Shown in pieces: positions 21,064 to 29,779 of a stretch of 33,215 bases of DNA. A program made the translations under genes and the position numbers. Each line of letters begins with the position of its first letter. Within the stretch, counting starts at the first letter, position 1. Location: contig JASGLU010000020.1 in NCBI GenBank assembly GCA_030156825.1, forward strand, positions 1-33,215, in the 5' to 3' direction. The notes below the pieces were generated by a model. It saw only the letters and a program-made list of their open reading frames with translations, was not told where the DNA came from and searched no databases. Origin of the DNA: Candidatus Atribacteria bacterium (lineage in GTDB: Bacteria; Atribacterota; Atribacteria; Atribacterales; JASGLU01).

Positions 21064-23166
21064 ATGGAAGAGAGAAAGAATCTTTTACTGGAGATTGGCC
21101 TGGAAGAAATCCCTACCAGTTTAATAGATGAAACTTTTCGCGCTTTCGGAGAAAATTTTTCTCAACTTTTCCGAGAAGCGCAGATTGAGTTTGAGCGGAT
21201 GGAAGTTTTAGGCACCCCGCGTCGCATAGCTTTACTTTTTTACCAGGTTTCTCCTTTACAAAAGGAAGTAATAAAAGAGGTAAAGGGACCTCCCAAAAAA
21301 GTGGGGATGTCAGAAGATGGTCAGTTTTTGAAACCGGCTCTGGCTTTTGCTGAAAATCAGGGTATTTCTCCTGCTGACTTGTTCCTGCGGGAGGAGGGAA
21401 AGGGAGTCTATATTTTTGGTAGGAAAAGAGAAGGGGGGAAGGAAGTGGTAAACCTTTTTCCCGACCTGCTAAAACAGGGAATAAGCTCCTTAAATTTTTC
21501 CCGATCTATGCTCTGGGGAGAAGGCGATTTTCGTTTCATCCGTCCTATCCGCTGGTTGTTGGCTCTTTATGGTGATCAGGTGGTCGATTTTCAGATAGCG
21601 GGGGTTACGGCTTCCCGGACGACCCGGGGCCATCGTTTTCTTTCCCCGGATTGGATAGCGGTGCCAGATGTTTCTTGCTATGTAGATTGTTTAAAGAAAA
21701 ATTTTGTAATAGTTGATCCCCGGGAACGAAGAACCAAAATTGAAGAGAGTCTGGAGAGGGAAGCTCAGGCTTTAGGTGCCCACTGGTTAAAAGATGAAGA
21801 TTTAATCAAAGAGGTTAATTTTTTGGTGGAATACCCCGACGCTCGATCCGGTCATTTTGACCAGCGCTATCTTTCTCTGCCCCCACGAGTGTTGGTTACG
21901 GTTATGAAACACCATCAGAAGTATTTTGCTTGTGTAGGCAGTCAGGGGGAGCTCCTTCCTTACTTTTTAGTGGTTTTGAACCGCCCAGGAGACGATAGCG
22001 AAAAAATTGTAAAAGGCAACGAGCGGGTGCTACGGGCCCGCCTGGAGGACGCCCTTTTCTTTTTCACCGAAGATCGAAAAAAAACCTTATCCAGCCGGGT
22101 AGAGGATTTGAAAGGAATAGTTTTTCAGGAAGGGCTGGGGACTCTCTGGGAAAAGACCCAACGGCTAAAAACATTGGTTCGTTATCTGGGAGAAAAACTG
22201 CAGTTTACTTCTAAAATAGCTTTTTTGGAGAGAGCAGCCTGGCTGTCCAAGGTTGATTTGACCTGTGAGATGGTAAAGGAACTGCCTGAACTCCAGGGAT
22301 ACATAGGCCGGGTTTATGCCTCCCTGGAGGGGGAACCGGAAGAAGTAGCTTCTGCCCTGGAAGAACAGTATCAACCTTTACCGGGAAAAGAGGATTACCC
22401 TCAGACCACCGAAGGGAGTGTCCTCTCACTGGCTGATCGGATGGACACTTTGGTTGCCAGTTTTGCTTTGGGTCGGATTCCCACCGGTTCAGAGGATCCC
22501 TTGGGATTACGTCGCTTGGTTTCGGCTATAATTACCCTTTTAATCCATCGACGGTGGTACTCTCCCCTTACTCCCTGGATAGAGGAAAACCTTGCTTTAA
22601 TTAAGGAGCAGGGCTTTGTCGCTTTTTCTCGGTCGGTGGTGAAAGAGGTAAAACAGTTTATTTTCAACCGCTTACGGTTTCATCTCTTGGAAGAAGGTTT
22701 TGACTATTCGGTAATCAATGCGGTGCTTGCTACCCCGGTGGATGATATTTTTGAAGTTTACTCCCGGGTACGGGCTCTCCAGCAGGTTTTTATCCAGCAG
22801 GCTGACCTTTTGGAAGAGATTGTAACCGGCTTTGTCCGAGCTAATAATATAACTAAGAACTTTTCCGGAGATGGGGAGGTGAAAGAGCCGCTTTTACAGG
22901 AAGAAGAGGAAAAAGAACTCTATTTGGCTTTTCTTCCTCTGGAAGAAAAGTTTAAGTCCGAAGTTCAAGCTGGAAGGTATCTGGAAGCTTTCCAGTCTTT
23001 TCAGTCGTTTCTACCCCATCTTCACCGTTTTTTTGATCGGGTTTTGGTAATGTGTGAGGAAGACGAGTTGCGGGAAAATCGATTGGTTCTTTTGAAAAAA
23101 ATTGTGAAAATGTGGGAGAGTTTTGCTGATCTCTCTCAGATTGTGGTGCGGGAGGAAGGGAAATGA
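21064..23166 (+). CDS. glyS: glycyl-tRNA synthetase beta subunit
   Basis: The beta subunit binds tRNA-Gly and completes the tetrameric synthetase. The 700-residue protein has the hallmark N terminus 'LLLEIGLEEIPTSLID', 'GPPKKVGMSEDGQFLKPA', 'SMLWGEGDFRFIRPIRWL', 'RTTRGHRFLSP' and the HD-like region 'PELQGYIGRVYASLEGEP', with the C-terminal anticodon-binding helices (about 590-690). The length is normal. It begins 4 bases after glyQ and overlaps the following gene by the ATGA arrangement, so glyQ, glyS, the PPDK regulator and ppdK form one translationally coupled unit. Confidence 0.97.
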   Translation: MEERKNLLLEIGLEEIPTSLIDETFRAFGENFSQLFREAQIEFERMEVLGTPRRIALLFYQVSPLQKEVIKEVKGPPKKVGMSEDGQFLKPALAFAENQGISPADLFLREEGKGVYIFGRKREGGKEVVNLFPDLLKQGISSLNFSRSMLWGEGDFRFIRPIRWLLALYGDQVVDFQIAGVTASRTTRGHRFLSPDWIAVPDVSCYVDCLKKNFVIVDPRERRTKIEESLEREAQALGAHWLKDEDLIKEVNFLVEYPDARSGHFDQRYLSLPPRVLVTVMKHHQKYFACVGSQGELLPYFLVVLNRPGDDSEKIVKGNERVLRARLEDALFFFTEDRKKTLSSRVEDLKGIVFQEGLGTLWEKTQRLKTLVRYLGEKLQFTSKIAFLERAAWLSKVDLTCEMVKELPELQGYIGRVYASLEGEPEEVASALEEQYQPLPGKEDYPQTTEGSVLSLADRMDTLVASFALGRIPTGSEDPLGLRRLVSAIITLLIHRRWYSPLTPWIEENLALIKEQGFVAFSRSVVKEVKQFIFNRLRFHLLEEGFDYSVINAVLATPVDDIFEVYSRVRALQQVFIQQADLLEEIVTGFVRANNITKNFSGDGEVKEPLLQEEEEKELYLAFLPLEEKFKSEVQAGRYLEAFQSFQSFLPHLHRFFDRVLVMCEEDELRENRLVLLKKIVKMWESFADLSQIVVREEGK

Positions 23167-24017
23167 CACCCTCAACCAGCGGTTACACGGTGAGTGATGA
23201 CTTTAATGTGTTTGTAGTTTCTGATGGTACGGCTAAGACTGCCTTGATGGTGGTACAAGCAGCACTGGCACAGTTTGACCTGCCTCGGGTTCGGGTCTTA
23301 CCTTTTGGACAGGTGCGAAACCAGGAGGCCCTTTATAATATTTTGGACATGGTTCGGGTGCAAAGGGATATTATGGTGTATACTTTGGTAAATGGAGAAA
23401 TAGCCCAACTTTTGCGGGCAGAGGCGGTAAACCGGGGGATAGTGGTTGTCGACCTTCTGGGACCGCTGGTAGATGTTTTGCACCGGATTAGTTCTCGTCA
23501 ACCTCGGGGTGAGGCTGGTCTTTTCCGAAGGTTAGAAGATAGTTCGGATAAAACCCAGGCTATCGAATATACTCTGGAACAAAGTACTGGTTTTAGCGAA
23601 GCCAAGTTGGATCAGGCGGATGTGATTCTTCTGACGGTCATCTTTCCCCATCGAGATGAATGTATGTTTATATTAGCCGAACAGGGAATAAAATGTGGCT
23701 TTTTATTGCTCGATCCCCATCTATTTCCCTCTCCCCATTGGCTACAAGTGATGGAGAAGATGAAACAAAAAGTGGTTGGAGTTACTGCCGACTTGGAATA
23801 TCTTAGGAAAATCCGACTGGAGCGACTGCAGGCTCTTGGTTTGGATTGCTTGTTGGAAAAAGCCGACTTGCAGGAAGTAAAGAAAGAGACAGAATTTGCT
23901 CAAAAGATTTTTGAGGAATTAAAATGTCCGGTGATAGATATTACCAACTTGAGTAGCCGGGAAATTGCAGACCAAATTTTATCTCAAATCCAAAGGAAGA
24001 AGGAGGAAGCAAAATGA
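23163..24017 (+). CDS. PPDK/PEP-synthase regulatory protein homologue (DUF299) with altered P-loop
   Basis: DUF299 proteins (YqfL, PpsR, plant RP1) inactivate PPDK by ADP-dependent phosphorylation of a Thr and reactivate it by Pi-dependent dephosphorylation. The 284-residue protein has the family N terminus (VVSDGTAKTALMVVQAALAQF), 'VVVDLLGPLVDVL', 'AIEYTLEQSTGF', 'LDQADVILL' and 'VIDITNLSSREIADQIL'. The nucleotide-binding P-loop, GVSRxxKTPxS in known members, should follow ILL; here residues 158-168 read TVIFPHRDECM, with the same length but no matching Gly, Ser, Lys or Thr. Alternative frames do not restore it. It overlaps glyS and ppdK by ATGA junctions. It may lack the kinase step, use a different phosphodonor, or be mainly a reactivating enzyme. 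Confidence 0.85.
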   Translation: MTPSTSGYTVSDDFNVFVVSDGTAKTALMVVQAALAQFDLPRVRVLPFGQVRNQEALYNILDMVRVQRDIMVYTLVNGEIAQLLRAEAVNRGIVVVDLLGPLVDVLHRISSRQPRGEAGLFRRLEDSSDKTQAIEYTLEQSTGFSEAKLDQADVILLTVIFPHRDECMFILAEQGIKCGFLLLDPHLFPSPHWLQVMEKMKQKVVGVTADLEYLRKIRLERLQALGLDCLLEKADLQEVKKETEFAQKIFEELKCPVIDITNLSSREIADQILSQIQRKKEEAK

Positions 24018-26668
24018 GTGAAAAGAAGTACGTTTACTTTTTTGGCGAAGGCGACGCTTCGATGAAAGTTCTCTTAGGTGGAAAAGGGGCCAATCTTTCC
24101 GAGATGACCCGGATTGGGCTGCCTGTTCCCCCAGGTTTTACCATTTCTACCGAAGCTTGCAACCATTACTACAAGAACAACCAGCAGTGGCCGGAAGGGT
24201 TAGAAGAAGAGATTAAGCAACATTTGAGCCGGTTGGAGAAAGAAGTTGGGAAGAAGCTGGGAGATGCAAACGACCCCCTGTTGGTCTCGGTTCGTTCGGG
24301 AGCTCCGGTTTCCATGCCTGGAATGATGGATACCATTTTGAACCTGGGCCTCAACGACCAATCGGTGGAAGGGCTGGCTAAATTGACCGGTGATAAACGG
24401 TTTGCCTATGATTGTTATCGGAGATTTATCCAGATGTTTGGTAACGTGGTGATGGGCATTGAACACGATAAGTTTGAAGCCATTCTGGATGAAGTGAAAG
24501 AAGAAGTAGGGGCTAAGCTGGATACCGAGCTTGACGCTGATGCCTTGAAGAAAGTTATTAATCGCTATAAAGAGCTTTACCGGAAAGAAACCGGAGAAGA
24601 CTTCCCCCAAGAACCTTATCAGCAATTAAAACGGGCTATCAACGCGGTCTTTGAGTCCTGGAACAACAAACGAGCTATTACTTATCGGCGGATTAATCGC
24701 ATTCCAGAAGAGTGGGGAACGGCGGTTAACGTTCAGACCATGGTTTTTGGCAATATGGGCTTTGATTCCGGTACCGGAGTCGGGTTTACCCGTAATCCTT
24801 CTACCGGCGAAAAAGAATACTATGGTGAGTATCTGCTGAACGCTCAGGGAGAAGATGTAGTGGCCGGTATTCGGACCCCCAAACCGATCAAAGAGATGGC
24901 ACAGGACTTACCCCAAGCTTTTGAAGATCTGAAGAAAGTTTACCAGGTTTTAGAAGAACACTACCGAGACATGCAGGACTTTGAATTCACCATTGAGCGA
25001 GGCAAACTTTACCTGCTACAAACTCGAACCGGTAAACGAACCACCCAGGCAGCGGTTAAAATCGCGGTGGACATGGTGAAAGAGGGCTTAATTGATAAGA
25101 AGACAGCGGTTACTCGGATTGACGCTGATCAACTAAACCAGCTTCTTCACCCACAGATCGATCGCAGCCAACCTCTGAAGGTCTTGGCTAAAGGTTTACC
25201 GGCTTCTCCAGGAGCAGCTTATGGAAAAGTAGTGTTTGAAGCGGATAAAGCCGAAGAATTGGGTAACAATGGAGAAAAAGTGATTTTGGTCCGGCCGGAA
25301 ACCACCCCGGACGATATTCACGGAGTAGTAGCTGCTCAGGGAGTCCTTACCAGTCGAGGAGGAATGACCAGCCATGCGGCGGTAGTAGCCCGGGGTATGG
25401 GTAAACCTTGTGTAGCTGGTTGTGAAGCGATTAAAATTGACTTGGCCAAGGGGATGTTCTCGGTAAACAGTACAGTGGTTAAGGAAGGAGATTACATAAC
25501 TATCGATGGGGGAGTAGGAGAGGTAATTTTAGGACAAGTTAAGACCATTCCCCCTCAGCTGTCAGGAGATTTCCAAGTGCTCCTTTCCTGGGCGGATGAA
25601 ATTAGAAAACTGGGGGTCCGGGCTAATGCCGATACTCCGGCTGATGCTCAAAAAGCCCTGGAATTTGGAGCCCAGGGAATTGGCCTTTGCCGGACTGAAC
25701 ACATGTTTATGGCTCCTGATCGTTTGCCAGCGATGCAACGAATGATTATGGCGCAAACGGTAGAGGAAAGGAAAGAGGCGCTGGCTAAAATCGAGCCCAT
25801 GCAAAAAGAAGACTTCAAGGGGATATTTAAGGTAATGGAAGAAAAACCGGTTACCATCCGCTTGATTGATCCCCCTCTCCATGAATTCCTTCCCAAACTG
25901 GAAGACCTGTTAGTGGAAGTGGCCACCCTGCGAGCCAAAGGAGTGACCGGTAAGGAACTGGAAGAAAAAGAAAATCTACTGAAAATAGTCAAGAATTTGA
26001 ACGAAGCTAACCCGATGCTCGGTCTTCGAGGTTGCCGATTGGGAATTCTTTACCCGGAAATCGTAGAGATGCAGGTTCGGGCCATTATGGAAGCAGCTTG
26101 TGAACTGACTAAAGAAGGGGTCAAAGTGATTCCTGAAATTATGATTCCTTTAGTGGGGCACCGGAACGAGATCAAGGTTTTGAAGGAACAGTTGGACCAG
26201 GTAGCCCAGGAAGTTATTGACCAGTATGGGGTCACAATAAGCTATAGTTTTGGAACCATGATTGAGGTTCCACGGGCTGCTTTGGTGGCTGATCAAATTG
26301 CAGAAGATGCTGAGTTTTTCTCTTTCGGCACCAACGACCTTACCCAGATGACTTTTGGTTATAGCCGAGATGATGCTGAAGGGAAATTCTTGTTCGTCTA
26401 TGAGGAAAAGAAGATTTTGGAAGATGATCCCTTTCAGGTTATTGACCAGGAAGGTGTAGGCCAGCTAATGCGTATGGGAGTAGAAAAAGGTAGAAAAACC
26501 CGGCCCAACCTCAAGTGCGGTATCTGCGGAGAGCATGGAGGAGAACCTCGGTCGGTCAAATTCTGCCATAGTATCGGTCTCAACTATGTGAGCTGTTCTC
26601 CTTTCCGGGTGCCTTTAGCTCGTTTAGCTGCTGCTCAGGCAGTTATTGAAGAAGAAAAGAAAAAGTAA
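24014..26668 (+). CDS. ppdK: pyruvate, phosphate dikinase
   Basis: PPDK interconverts PEP, AMP and PPi with pyruvate, ATP and Pi; many anaerobes use it in glycolysis or gluconeogenesis. The 884-residue protein has the typical three-domain layout: N-terminal nucleotide-binding domain (GGKGANLSEMTRIGLPVPPG, 'SVRSGAPVSMPGMMDTILNL'), the swivelling phosphohistidine domain with SRGGMTSHAAVVARGMGKP, and the TIM-barrel PEP domain ending 'CGICGEHGGEP' and 'VSCSPFRVPLARLA'. Both the catalytic His454 and the regulatory Thr452 are present, so it remains a target for a DUF299 enzyme. It starts within the stop of the regulator gene and is followed by a strong hairpin. The membrane PPase downstream links it to PPi metabolism. 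Confidence 0.98.
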   Translation: MSEKKYVYFFGEGDASMKVLLGGKGANLSEMTRIGLPVPPGFTISTEACNHYYKNNQQWPEGLEEEIKQHLSRLEKEVGKKLGDANDPLLVSVRSGAPVSMPGMMDTILNLGLNDQSVEGLAKLTGDKRFAYDCYRRFIQMFGNVVMGIEHDKFEAILDEVKEEVGAKLDTELDADALKKVINRYKELYRKETGEDFPQEPYQQLKRAINAVFESWNNKRAITYRRINRIPEEWGTAVNVQTMVFGNMGFDSGTGVGFTRNPSTGEKEYYGEYLLNAQGEDVVAGIRTPKPIKEMAQDLPQAFEDLKKVYQVLEEHYRDMQDFEFTIERGKLYLLQTRTGKRTTQAAVKIAVDMVKEGLIDKKTAVTRIDADQLNQLLHPQIDRSQPLKVLAKGLPASPGAAYGKVVFEADKAEELGNNGEKVILVRPETTPDDIHGVVAAQGVLTSRGGMTSHAAVVARGMGKPCVAGCEAIKIDLAKGMFSVNSTVVKEGDYITIDGGVGEVILGQVKTIPPQLSGDFQVLLSWADEIRKLGVRANADTPADAQKALEFGAQGIGLCRTEHMFMAPDRLPAMQRMIMAQTVEERKEALAKIEPMQKEDFKGIFKVMEEKPVTIRLIDPPLHEFLPKLEDLLVEVATLRAKGVTGKELEEKENLLKIVKNLNEANPMLGLRGCRLGILYPEIVEMQVRAIMEAACELTKEGVKVIPEIMIPLVGHRNEIKVLKEQLDQVAQEVIDQYGVTISYSFGTMIEVPRAALVADQIAEDAEFFSFGTNDLTQMTFGYSRDDAEGKFLFVYEEKKILEDDPFQVIDQEGVGQLMRMGVEKGRKTRPNLKCGICGEHGGEPRSVKFCHSIGLNYVSCSPFRVPLARLAAAQAVIEEEKKK

Positions 26669-27817: not shown

Positions 27818-29779
27818 ATGGGAGCTGTTATTTTTGTACCGATTGCCGGATTAGTTGCTCTTTTGTTTGCTCTTTACTTAGTGAATCGAATCAATACTTT
27901 TTCTCCGGGCAATGACAAAATGCAAGAAATTTCCCAAGCAGTACAGGAAGGAGCCATGGCCTTTCTCCGGAGGGAATACTCGTTCTTGGTTATTTTTGTG
28001 ATTATTATGTTTGTGGCTTTAGGGTTTGCCCGCACTTGGGTTACTGCCTATTGCTTTTTACTGGGGGCCCTTTGTTCCGGGTTGGCCGGTTTTATTGGCA
28101 TGAGAGTTGCTACTCGGAGTAACGCCCGCACTACCCAGGCAGCTACTGAGGGAGCCAATACCGCTTTGCGAGTGGCTTTTTCTGCTGGAACCGTAATGGG
28201 GATGGCGGTAGTTGGTTTCGCTCTTTTGGGTTTAGGAATTCTTTACTATATCATTCGTGACCCGGAAACCATAAATGGCTTTGCGTTGGGAGCAAGCTCT
28301 ATCGCTCTTTTTGCCAGGGTAGGTGGTGGAATTTACACCAAAGCGGCCGATGTGGGGGCTGATTTGGTGGGTAAGGTAGAAGCCGGTATTCCCGAGGACG
28401 ACCCTCGTAACCCGGCGGTTATTGCCGATAACGTAGGCGATAATGTCGGTGACGTTGCCGGTATGGGGGCTGACCTTTTTGAGTCTTACGCCGGCTCGAT
28501 TATTGCCGCTATGATCTTGGGGGTAGCCTTTTTCGAAGGGTTAAGTGGAGTTCTTTATCCCCTCTTGTTGGCTGCTTGTGGAATTGTGGCCGCTATTTTG
28601 GGCACTTTCTTTGTGAACACCAAAGACGAAAAAGGCTTGGCGGCAGCCCTAAACCGGGGGACTTACGCCAGTGGAGTTCTGGTTGCTATTTTCAGCCTGG
28701 TTCTTTCTTTGATTCTTTTTGGAGGGCTGGGTCCATTTGTAGCTACTGTTTCTGGTTTAGTTGCCGGTATCGCTATTGGATTGCTTTCTGAATATTACAC
28801 TTCCAGTCATTATAAACCGGTGCAGGTTTTGGCCAATTCTGCCCAAACCGGGCCGGCTACGGTTATCATTGAGGGTTTATCGGTAGGAATGCAAAGCACG
28901 GTGTTCCCAGTATTGCTTATCTGTGCCGCTATCCTGATTTCTAACTGGGCGGCTGGTATTTATGGAATTGCAATTGCTGCCGTAGGTATGCTTTCTATTA
29001 CCGGTATGACTTTGGCGGTGGATGCCTATGGTCCGGTAGCTGATAATGCCGGTGGAATTGCTGAGATGGCGAGTTTACCGCCTGGGGTAAGAAAAATCAC
29101 CGATTCTTTAGACGCTCTGGGAAATACTACTGCTGCTATTGGTAAAGGATTGGCTATTGGGTCGGCTGCCTTAACCGCACTGGCTCTTTTTTCTGCTTAC
29201 AGTACGGCGGTGGGGCTGCAAATTATCGATCTTTTGCGACCACAAACGGTAGTGGGTATTTTTGTGGGAGGTATGATGCCTTTTCTCTTTAGCTCTTTGG
29301 CATTGAGAGCGGTAGGAAGGGCAGCTTTTAGAATGGTGGAAGAGGTTCGCCGCCAGTTCAAAGAAATTCCCGGTTTGATGGAAGGAAAAGCCAAACCAGA
29401 CCATGCTCGCTGTATTGATATCAGCACTCGAGGAGCTATCTCTCAGATGATACTGCCGGGTATTTTAGCGGTGGCGGTGCCACTGGTGGTAGGAGTTGTC
29501 CTGGGTAAAGAAGCCCTGGGCGGCTTGTTAGGTGGGGCTATTGTCTCTGGGCTGGTGCTGGCGATTATGATGGCTAATTCCGGGGGAGCCTGGGATAACG
29601 CTAAAAAATACATCGAAGAAGGTAATTTGGGTGGTAAAGGAACTCCAGTCCACTCTGCTTCGGTAGTAGGAGATACAGTAGGTGATCCGTTTAAAGATAC
29701 AGCTGGGCCTTCGCTCAACATTCTGATTAAGCTCATGTCGATTGTAGCCCTGGTTTTTGCTCCTTTATTTATTGGTTAG
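27818..29779 (+). CDS. hppA: membrane-bound ion-pumping pyrophosphatase (K+-dependent type, possibly Na+-pumping)
   Basis: Membrane PPases hydrolyse PPi and pump H+ or Na+ across the membrane. The 653-residue protein has about 16 membrane helices and the hallmark cytoplasmic motifs '[20 protein letters not shown]', '[19 protein letters not shown]', '[16 protein letters not shown]' and '[17 protein letters not shown]'. Ala439 and Gly442 in [10 protein letters not shown] match the K+-dependent subfamily, where K+-independent enzymes have Lys at the first position. Glu222 in [10 protein letters not shown] stands where Na+-transporting enzymes carry their gate Glu, suggesting Na+ or Na+/H+ pumping; this is inference. 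The ATG follows GAGGAGG. It closely follows dgt and lies 1.1 kb after ppdK. Confidence 0.95.

Follow-up and report, generated by a model that had tools for sequence, protein, structure and literature searches.

A DUF299 protein with a replaced C-terminal P-loop encoded beside pyruvate phosphate dikinase in Atribacterales

Described DUF299 regulators and the atribacterial locus

Proteins of the DUF299 family are among the few enzymes in which a single active site serves both the phosphorylation and the dephosphorylation of the target, using ADP and Pi. For the maize enzyme, K274, K299 and D277 were reportedly named as catalytic residues by Jiang et al. in 2016. The C-terminal domain of maize PDRP1 is reported to be the single active site for the kinase and the phosphorylase, and the P-loop of its N-terminal domain was proposed to be allosteric (PMC9138534). 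The C-terminal P-loop GVSRTGKTP starts at residue 293 in peptide numbering (PMC6019023), which makes its lysine K299. According to a review, every bacterium with a pyruvate phosphate dikinase (PPDK) also has a DUF299 protein (PMC8100219).

The window, i.e., the whole stretch of 33,215 nucleotides analyzed here (Candidatus Atribacteria bacterium, contig JASGLU010000020.1 of GCA_030156825.1), contains a divergent DUF299 gene that shares 4-base ATGA overlaps with glyS upstream and with ppdK downstream. The following features are referred to below:

21064..23166, + strand: glyS, conserved upstream neighbor of the DUF299 gene
23163..24017, + strand: divergent DUF299 gene (PF03618), 284 aa, ATG at 23163, stop codon ending at 24017
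23220..23243, + strand: phosphate loop of the N-terminal domain, S20-D-G-T-A-K25-T-A27, matching SDGTGWTA of maize PDRP1 in the alignment
23577..23591, + strand: former catalytic motif K-H-D-D-G, now E139-Q-S-T-G143, at the positions of maize K274/D277
23634..23660, + strand: former C-terminal P-loop GVSRTSKTP, now T158-V-I-F-P-H-R-D-E166
24014..26668, + strand: ppdK, pyruvate phosphate dikinase, the presumed partner (TIGR01828, 1462 bits)
25367..25375, + strand: codons Thr452-Ser-His454 of ppdK, with Thr452 and the catalytic His454 both intact

The DUF299 product matched PF03618 over the entire profile (positions 1-256 of 256) with 157.4 bits (E-value 7.2e-46), which is above the gathering score of 23.5 and below the curated cut-off of 225 bits of NCBIfam NF003742. 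The only PDB relative found by sequence was 5D0N (maize PDRP1), which is described as AMP-bound. The same entry was the best Foldseek match (E-value 2.7e-15) of an AlphaFold model of the Atribacterales protein, in which the DUF299 fold was recovered and the arrangement of the domains is not reliable (pLDDT 80, pTM 0.51).

The replaced C-terminal site and the retained N-terminal loop

Residues 158-168 of the window protein read TVIFPHRDECM where the family has GVSRTSKTPLS. The preliminary description had reported this exchange as one of equal length in an intact frame, and the alignment with maize PDRP1 bears it out: T158-E166 falls on GVSRTGKTP of 5D0N without a gap, which leaves the C-terminal half without a canonical P-loop at any other place, and R164 takes the place of K299. 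The only other such loop is the N-terminal one, an extra that occurs throughout the family. The accompanying statement that the surrounding motifs are conserved held in part only, as the K-H-D-D-G motif reads E-Q-S-T-G (counting back in the alignment, maize K274 corresponds to E139 and D277 to T142) and the D-E-Y-F motif is also lost.

The variant set comprised the 24 Atribacterales copies that span the P-loop segment, and the comparison set comprised 70 DUF299 proteins from approximately 36 families of other phyla together with E. coli, Chloroflexota and Planctomycetota; a single family contributed approximately 25 of them, so that the set is less independent than its size suggests. All 70 have G158, S160, R161, K164 and D141, and 69 have D142. 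The pattern G[VI]SR..KTP was found in 0/24 Atribacterales copies, where the canonical S160-R161, T165-P166, D141 and D142 are missing throughout, G158 is lost in 20 and K164 in 22, the remaining two having their Lys in the context WYPHKDE. The clade consensus at the former P-loop is (T/G)VW(Y/F)P(H/R)(R/K)(D/E)(E/D). By column, the 24 proteins have S141 (24/24), T/S/G142, T/G/S158, mostly W160, Y/F161, P162 (24/24), H/R163, R/K164, mostly D/E165, and E/D166. Since position 164, the column of the P-loop Lys, is always basic (R in 22, K in two), an anion or a nucleotide could still bind there. No His, Asp or Glu of the replacement loop is strictly invariant (H163 is R in three proteins, D165 is E, N or G in seven, and E166 is D or R in six), a pattern unlike that of a catalytic site and more in line with a role in structure or binding.

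All twelve near-universal residues lost in the clade are C-terminal (positions 141, 142, 158, 160, 161, 164, 165, 166, 180, 182, 233, and 266) and none is N-terminal, where S20, D21, Q37, F38, T74, and D97 are retained. The N-terminal loop follows the pattern [IV]SD[SGA]TG.TA, reading SDGTAKTA at residues 20-27 with S20, D21, T23, and T26 kept. Sixteen new invariant positions were found in the N-terminal domain and the linker, among them D12, D13, G22, K25, R42, D62, D69, R112, and R115. K25 is present in 23/23 variants vs. 3/70 proteins elsewhere, where Glu is commonest. A migration of the Lys from the C-terminal to the N-terminal loop was considered as a hallmark of the clade, and this idea is weakened by the occurrence of K25 alongside a canonical C-terminal site elsewhere (L062; 3/70 overall).

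Distribution, selection and sister lineages

In all 25 Atribacterales genomes (4 families, approximately 10 genera; 12 genomes with a completeness of 90% or more and a contamination of 5% or less) the divergent gene is the sole DUF299 gene and lies directly upstream of the only ppdK, on the same strand and with 33-69 bases between the domain matches. Among the 61 relatives searched, each genome of the order had one DUF299 copy, that of G002 being present as two halves at contig ends, and the full-length copies of the order scored 146-175 bits vs. 305-318 bits for another family of the same phylum. Every full-length match outside the order scored at least 236 bits in a search of 386 genomes, and two large phyla sampled separately gave 231-330 and 245-320 bits (approximately 1,200 genomes searched in total). 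An alignment-based scan of the genome contigs located 24 loci, 18 of them of the variant type; a single-sequence scan of the same contigs found no relative. No second, canonical DUF299 gene was found in the window genome or in any genome of the order, including two single-contig ones. Two of the checks proposed in the preliminary description came out on its side, close relatives sharing the replaced P-loop (24/24 orthologs) and a second DUF299 gene being absent from these genomes, while its implication that the variant is peculiar to one genome was wrong, as the variant is order-wide. Outside Atribacterota, one 197-aa frame (G446:C83:12865-13257) gave two adjoining DUF299 matches of low score (43 and 30 bits) and is possibly a truncated or degenerate member. 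The ppdK of G012 (L027/L153/L155, G012:C68:7382-9830) is split into overlapping frames of 433 and 445 aa by an apparent frameshift or assembly error.

In the maximum likelihood tree the Atribacterales clade has a single origin and groups as sister to the proteins of the JS1 class (support 99/92). The stem lengths of DUF299 are 1.21 changes per site for Atribacterales and 0.39 for JS1, and those of PPDK on the same split are 0.30 and 0.21. In close pairs, dN/dS was 0.00-0.07 in the N-terminal half and 0.03-0.20 in the C-terminal half, and DUF299 is under purifying selection in Atribacterales. Identity within the clade is higher in the N-terminal than in the C-terminal half (0.685 vs. 0.555); in the canonical set it is lower there (0.395 vs. 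0.454). The long DUF299 stem, the short PPDK stem, and the low dN/dS together point to one episode of rapid change in the ancestor of the order, with conservation thereafter. A horizontal origin is disfavored by the sister position to JS1 and the shared glyS-DUF299-ppdK locus. The decay of a gene may begin with the loss of an active site, but a decaying pseudogene or a sequencing artifact has a negligible probability here and is already refuted by the comparative data: wherever the full gene is present its frame is open, the gene is present in 25/25 genomes, dN/dS is well below 1 in both domains, and the clade has invariant residues of its own. Sequencing error, frameshift, or chance cannot account for the exchange, which is shared by 24/24 orthologs from independent assemblies, two single-contig genomes among them.

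The sister clade, from the JS1 class (Phoenicimicrobiia, family f7), has a canonical DUF299 gene at the same locus, between glyS and ppdK; unlike in the Atribacterales proteins, GVSRTSKTPLS is intact in the JS1 proteins, as is the Lys that precedes the DD motif. In nine of them (L002-L010) KYDAC was observed where the family has KHDDG, with Ala in place of the second Asp in 9/9. This second Asp of K-x-D-D-G is reportedly the catalytic base in maize; either the first Asp may do the work in JS1 or the JS1 proteins may be compromised too.

A second JS1 family (f5) had no DUF299 match in the 386-genome search, and ppdK directly follows glyS (identified by eye) in 8/8 loci read (L157-L164). The eight PPDKs of this family keep the same GGMTSHAAVVARGMG, which is thus present in all three states of the locus, with DUF299 canonical, dismantled, or absent. 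As GGMTSHAAVVARGMG is kept where there is no DUF299 protein, intact Thr452 and His454 are by themselves no sign of regulation by phosphorylation. The preliminary description was right that the adjoining PPDK has both residues; its argument from them is weak, given the eight sister-family PPDKs that retain the pair without DUF299. The presence of PPDK without DUF299 in this family runs against the statement of the review (PMC8100219).

Further observations concern the metabolic surroundings of PPDK. Genomes of f5 also encode an open-frame protein of approximately 1,380 aa, parts of which match the N-terminal (253-270 bits) and mobile (89-95 bits) domains of PPDK:

G025:C42, G027:C64, G029:C56, G033:C8, G034:C66, G038:C65, G040:C57, G047:C157: PPDK-like protein of approximately 1,380 aa in JS1 family f5

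In the window, a 653-aa ORF resembling a membrane-type pyrophosphatase (27818-29779, identified by eye only) lies two genes downstream of ppdK, and the JS1 loci L165-L167 have a similar ORF immediately after ppdK; this would be a PPi-linked neighborhood. A search for pyruvate kinase (TIGR01064) gave no hit in the window genome, which is 93% complete, and none in four genomes belonging to one genus (g10, family f2); in these genomes PPDK may therefore carry the glycolytic flux from PEP to pyruvate. Loss of pyruvate kinase was rejected as an explanation of the variant, because most of the order has one, although none was found in the window genome.

Interpretation and comparison with known systems

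The best reading of these data, which we hold at about even chances on the strength of sequence comparison, is a catalytically dead, non-covalent, and probably adenylate-binding partner of PPDK. The protein would be a vertically inherited DUF299 regulator of PPDK that was altered once in the ancestor of Atribacterales. The residues of the old C-terminal site are lost, and the site would be unable to carry out the ADP-dependent phosphorylation or the Pi-dependent dephosphorylation of PPDK. The protein would most likely still bind PPDK, an adenine nucleotide would be held in the N-terminal domain by the retained SDGTGKTA loop, the W-Y/F-P-H-R-D/E loop would provide a surface for binding and take no part in catalysis, and PPDK would then be regulated non-covalently by an inhibitor or activator responsive to energy charge. 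With the catalytic site replaced and the second nucleotide-binding loop kept and reinforced, regulation probably proceeds without the usual chemistry. A mechanistically new or binding-type regulator had been put forward in the preliminary description and gains support from the loss of all near-universal C-terminal catalytic residues, the retained selection, and the synteny. Its alternative of a phosphorylase-only or otherwise monofunctional enzyme is disfavored, since the kinase and the phosphorylase share the lost C-terminal site (PMC9138534), of which the P-loop Lys, the preceding Lys, and both Asp are replaced.

Three other readings keep the protein functional. The C-terminal site could have been remodeled and still be catalytic, with R164 in place of the P-loop Lys, D165/E166 or another acid as base, and a kinase or phosphorylase activity with an altered donor or acceptor. 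The basic residue at 164 in 24/24 proteins, the mostly acidic positions 165 and 166, and the unchanged loop length are in keeping with such a site; we nevertheless regard it as unlikely, because bulky W, Y/F, and P stand in place of the Gly/Ser backbone of a phosphate loop, both Asp are lost without any invariant acid or His, and the losses extend to N180 and P182, which follow the next strand. A somewhat lower probability is given to a relocation of the active site, in which the like-folded halves would have swapped roles: the N-terminal half would be catalytic via K25 and D12/D13, its formerly allosteric P-loop now being the working nucleotide or phosphotransfer site that controls PPDK, and the C-terminal half would be regulatory. 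Both halves of maize PDRP have the same fold, the N-terminal loop of the clade now has the TGKT of the maize C-terminal P-loop, the N-terminal domain has become the more constrained half, and K25, G22, D12, D13, R42, D62, D69, R112, and R115 are near-invariant in this clade only; however, no pattern resembling K-x-D-D-G was seen ahead of the N-terminal loop, and K25 and a canonical C-terminal site are found together in at least one protein, L062 (K25 in 3/70 proteins of the comparison set).

Just as improbable, in our estimate, is that regulation of PPDK was abandoned for another partner or nucleotide-binding role and that the adjacency to ppdK reflects operon conservation only. The very long DUF299 stem (1.21) next to the modest PPDK stem (0.30) would fit such a change, and the PPDK Thr, being kept with or without DUF299, gives no argument for a functional link. 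Against it stand the adjacency in 25/25 genomes and the 4-base overlap in the window, although the sister family lacks the gene at this locus.

Atribacterales represent a natural experiment in which the active site was removed order-wide and the protein was kept by selection beside its target, in a phylum whose members can be compared for a canonical, a dismantled, and a missing DUF299 at the same locus. The clade allows a direct test of whether the rest of the protein, above all the poorly understood N-terminal nucleotide loop, regulates PPDK by itself, and the label 'bifunctional kinase/pyrophosphorylase', when assigned automatically, is probably incorrect for proteins of this order. Such a test is practical with the cultivated strains of the order; Atribacter laminatus and Thermatribacter velox are described as pure cultures (PMC11227167).

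No description of a DUF299 clade without the P-loop was found in the literature searched, mostly openly accessible papers. The closest known systems are the DUF299/PF03618 regulators (maize PDRP1, 5D0N; E. coli PpsR; bacterial PDRP), which the Atribacterales protein resembles in full-length homology, fold, and the neighboring ppdK. It has the N-terminal SDGT..TA loop, R218, R221, E242, and G143 in common with the canonical members and differs from them in GVSRTxKTP, K-x-D-D-G, N180, P182, Y233, and E266, all of which are replaced. HPr kinase/phosphorylase (HPrK/P) is likewise a kinase/phosphorylase but belongs to a different family and was not detected by sequence; maize PDRP has been superimposed on it (PMC9138534). 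Maize PDRP2 and Arabidopsis RP2, which are naturally near-monofunctional kinases (PMC6019023), are natural departures from bifunctionality, as are the Atribacterales proteins; in PDRP2, however, the residues reported as catalytic are unaltered and the P-loop GVSRTGKTP is intact, whereas in Atribacterales the whole C-terminal site has been replaced.
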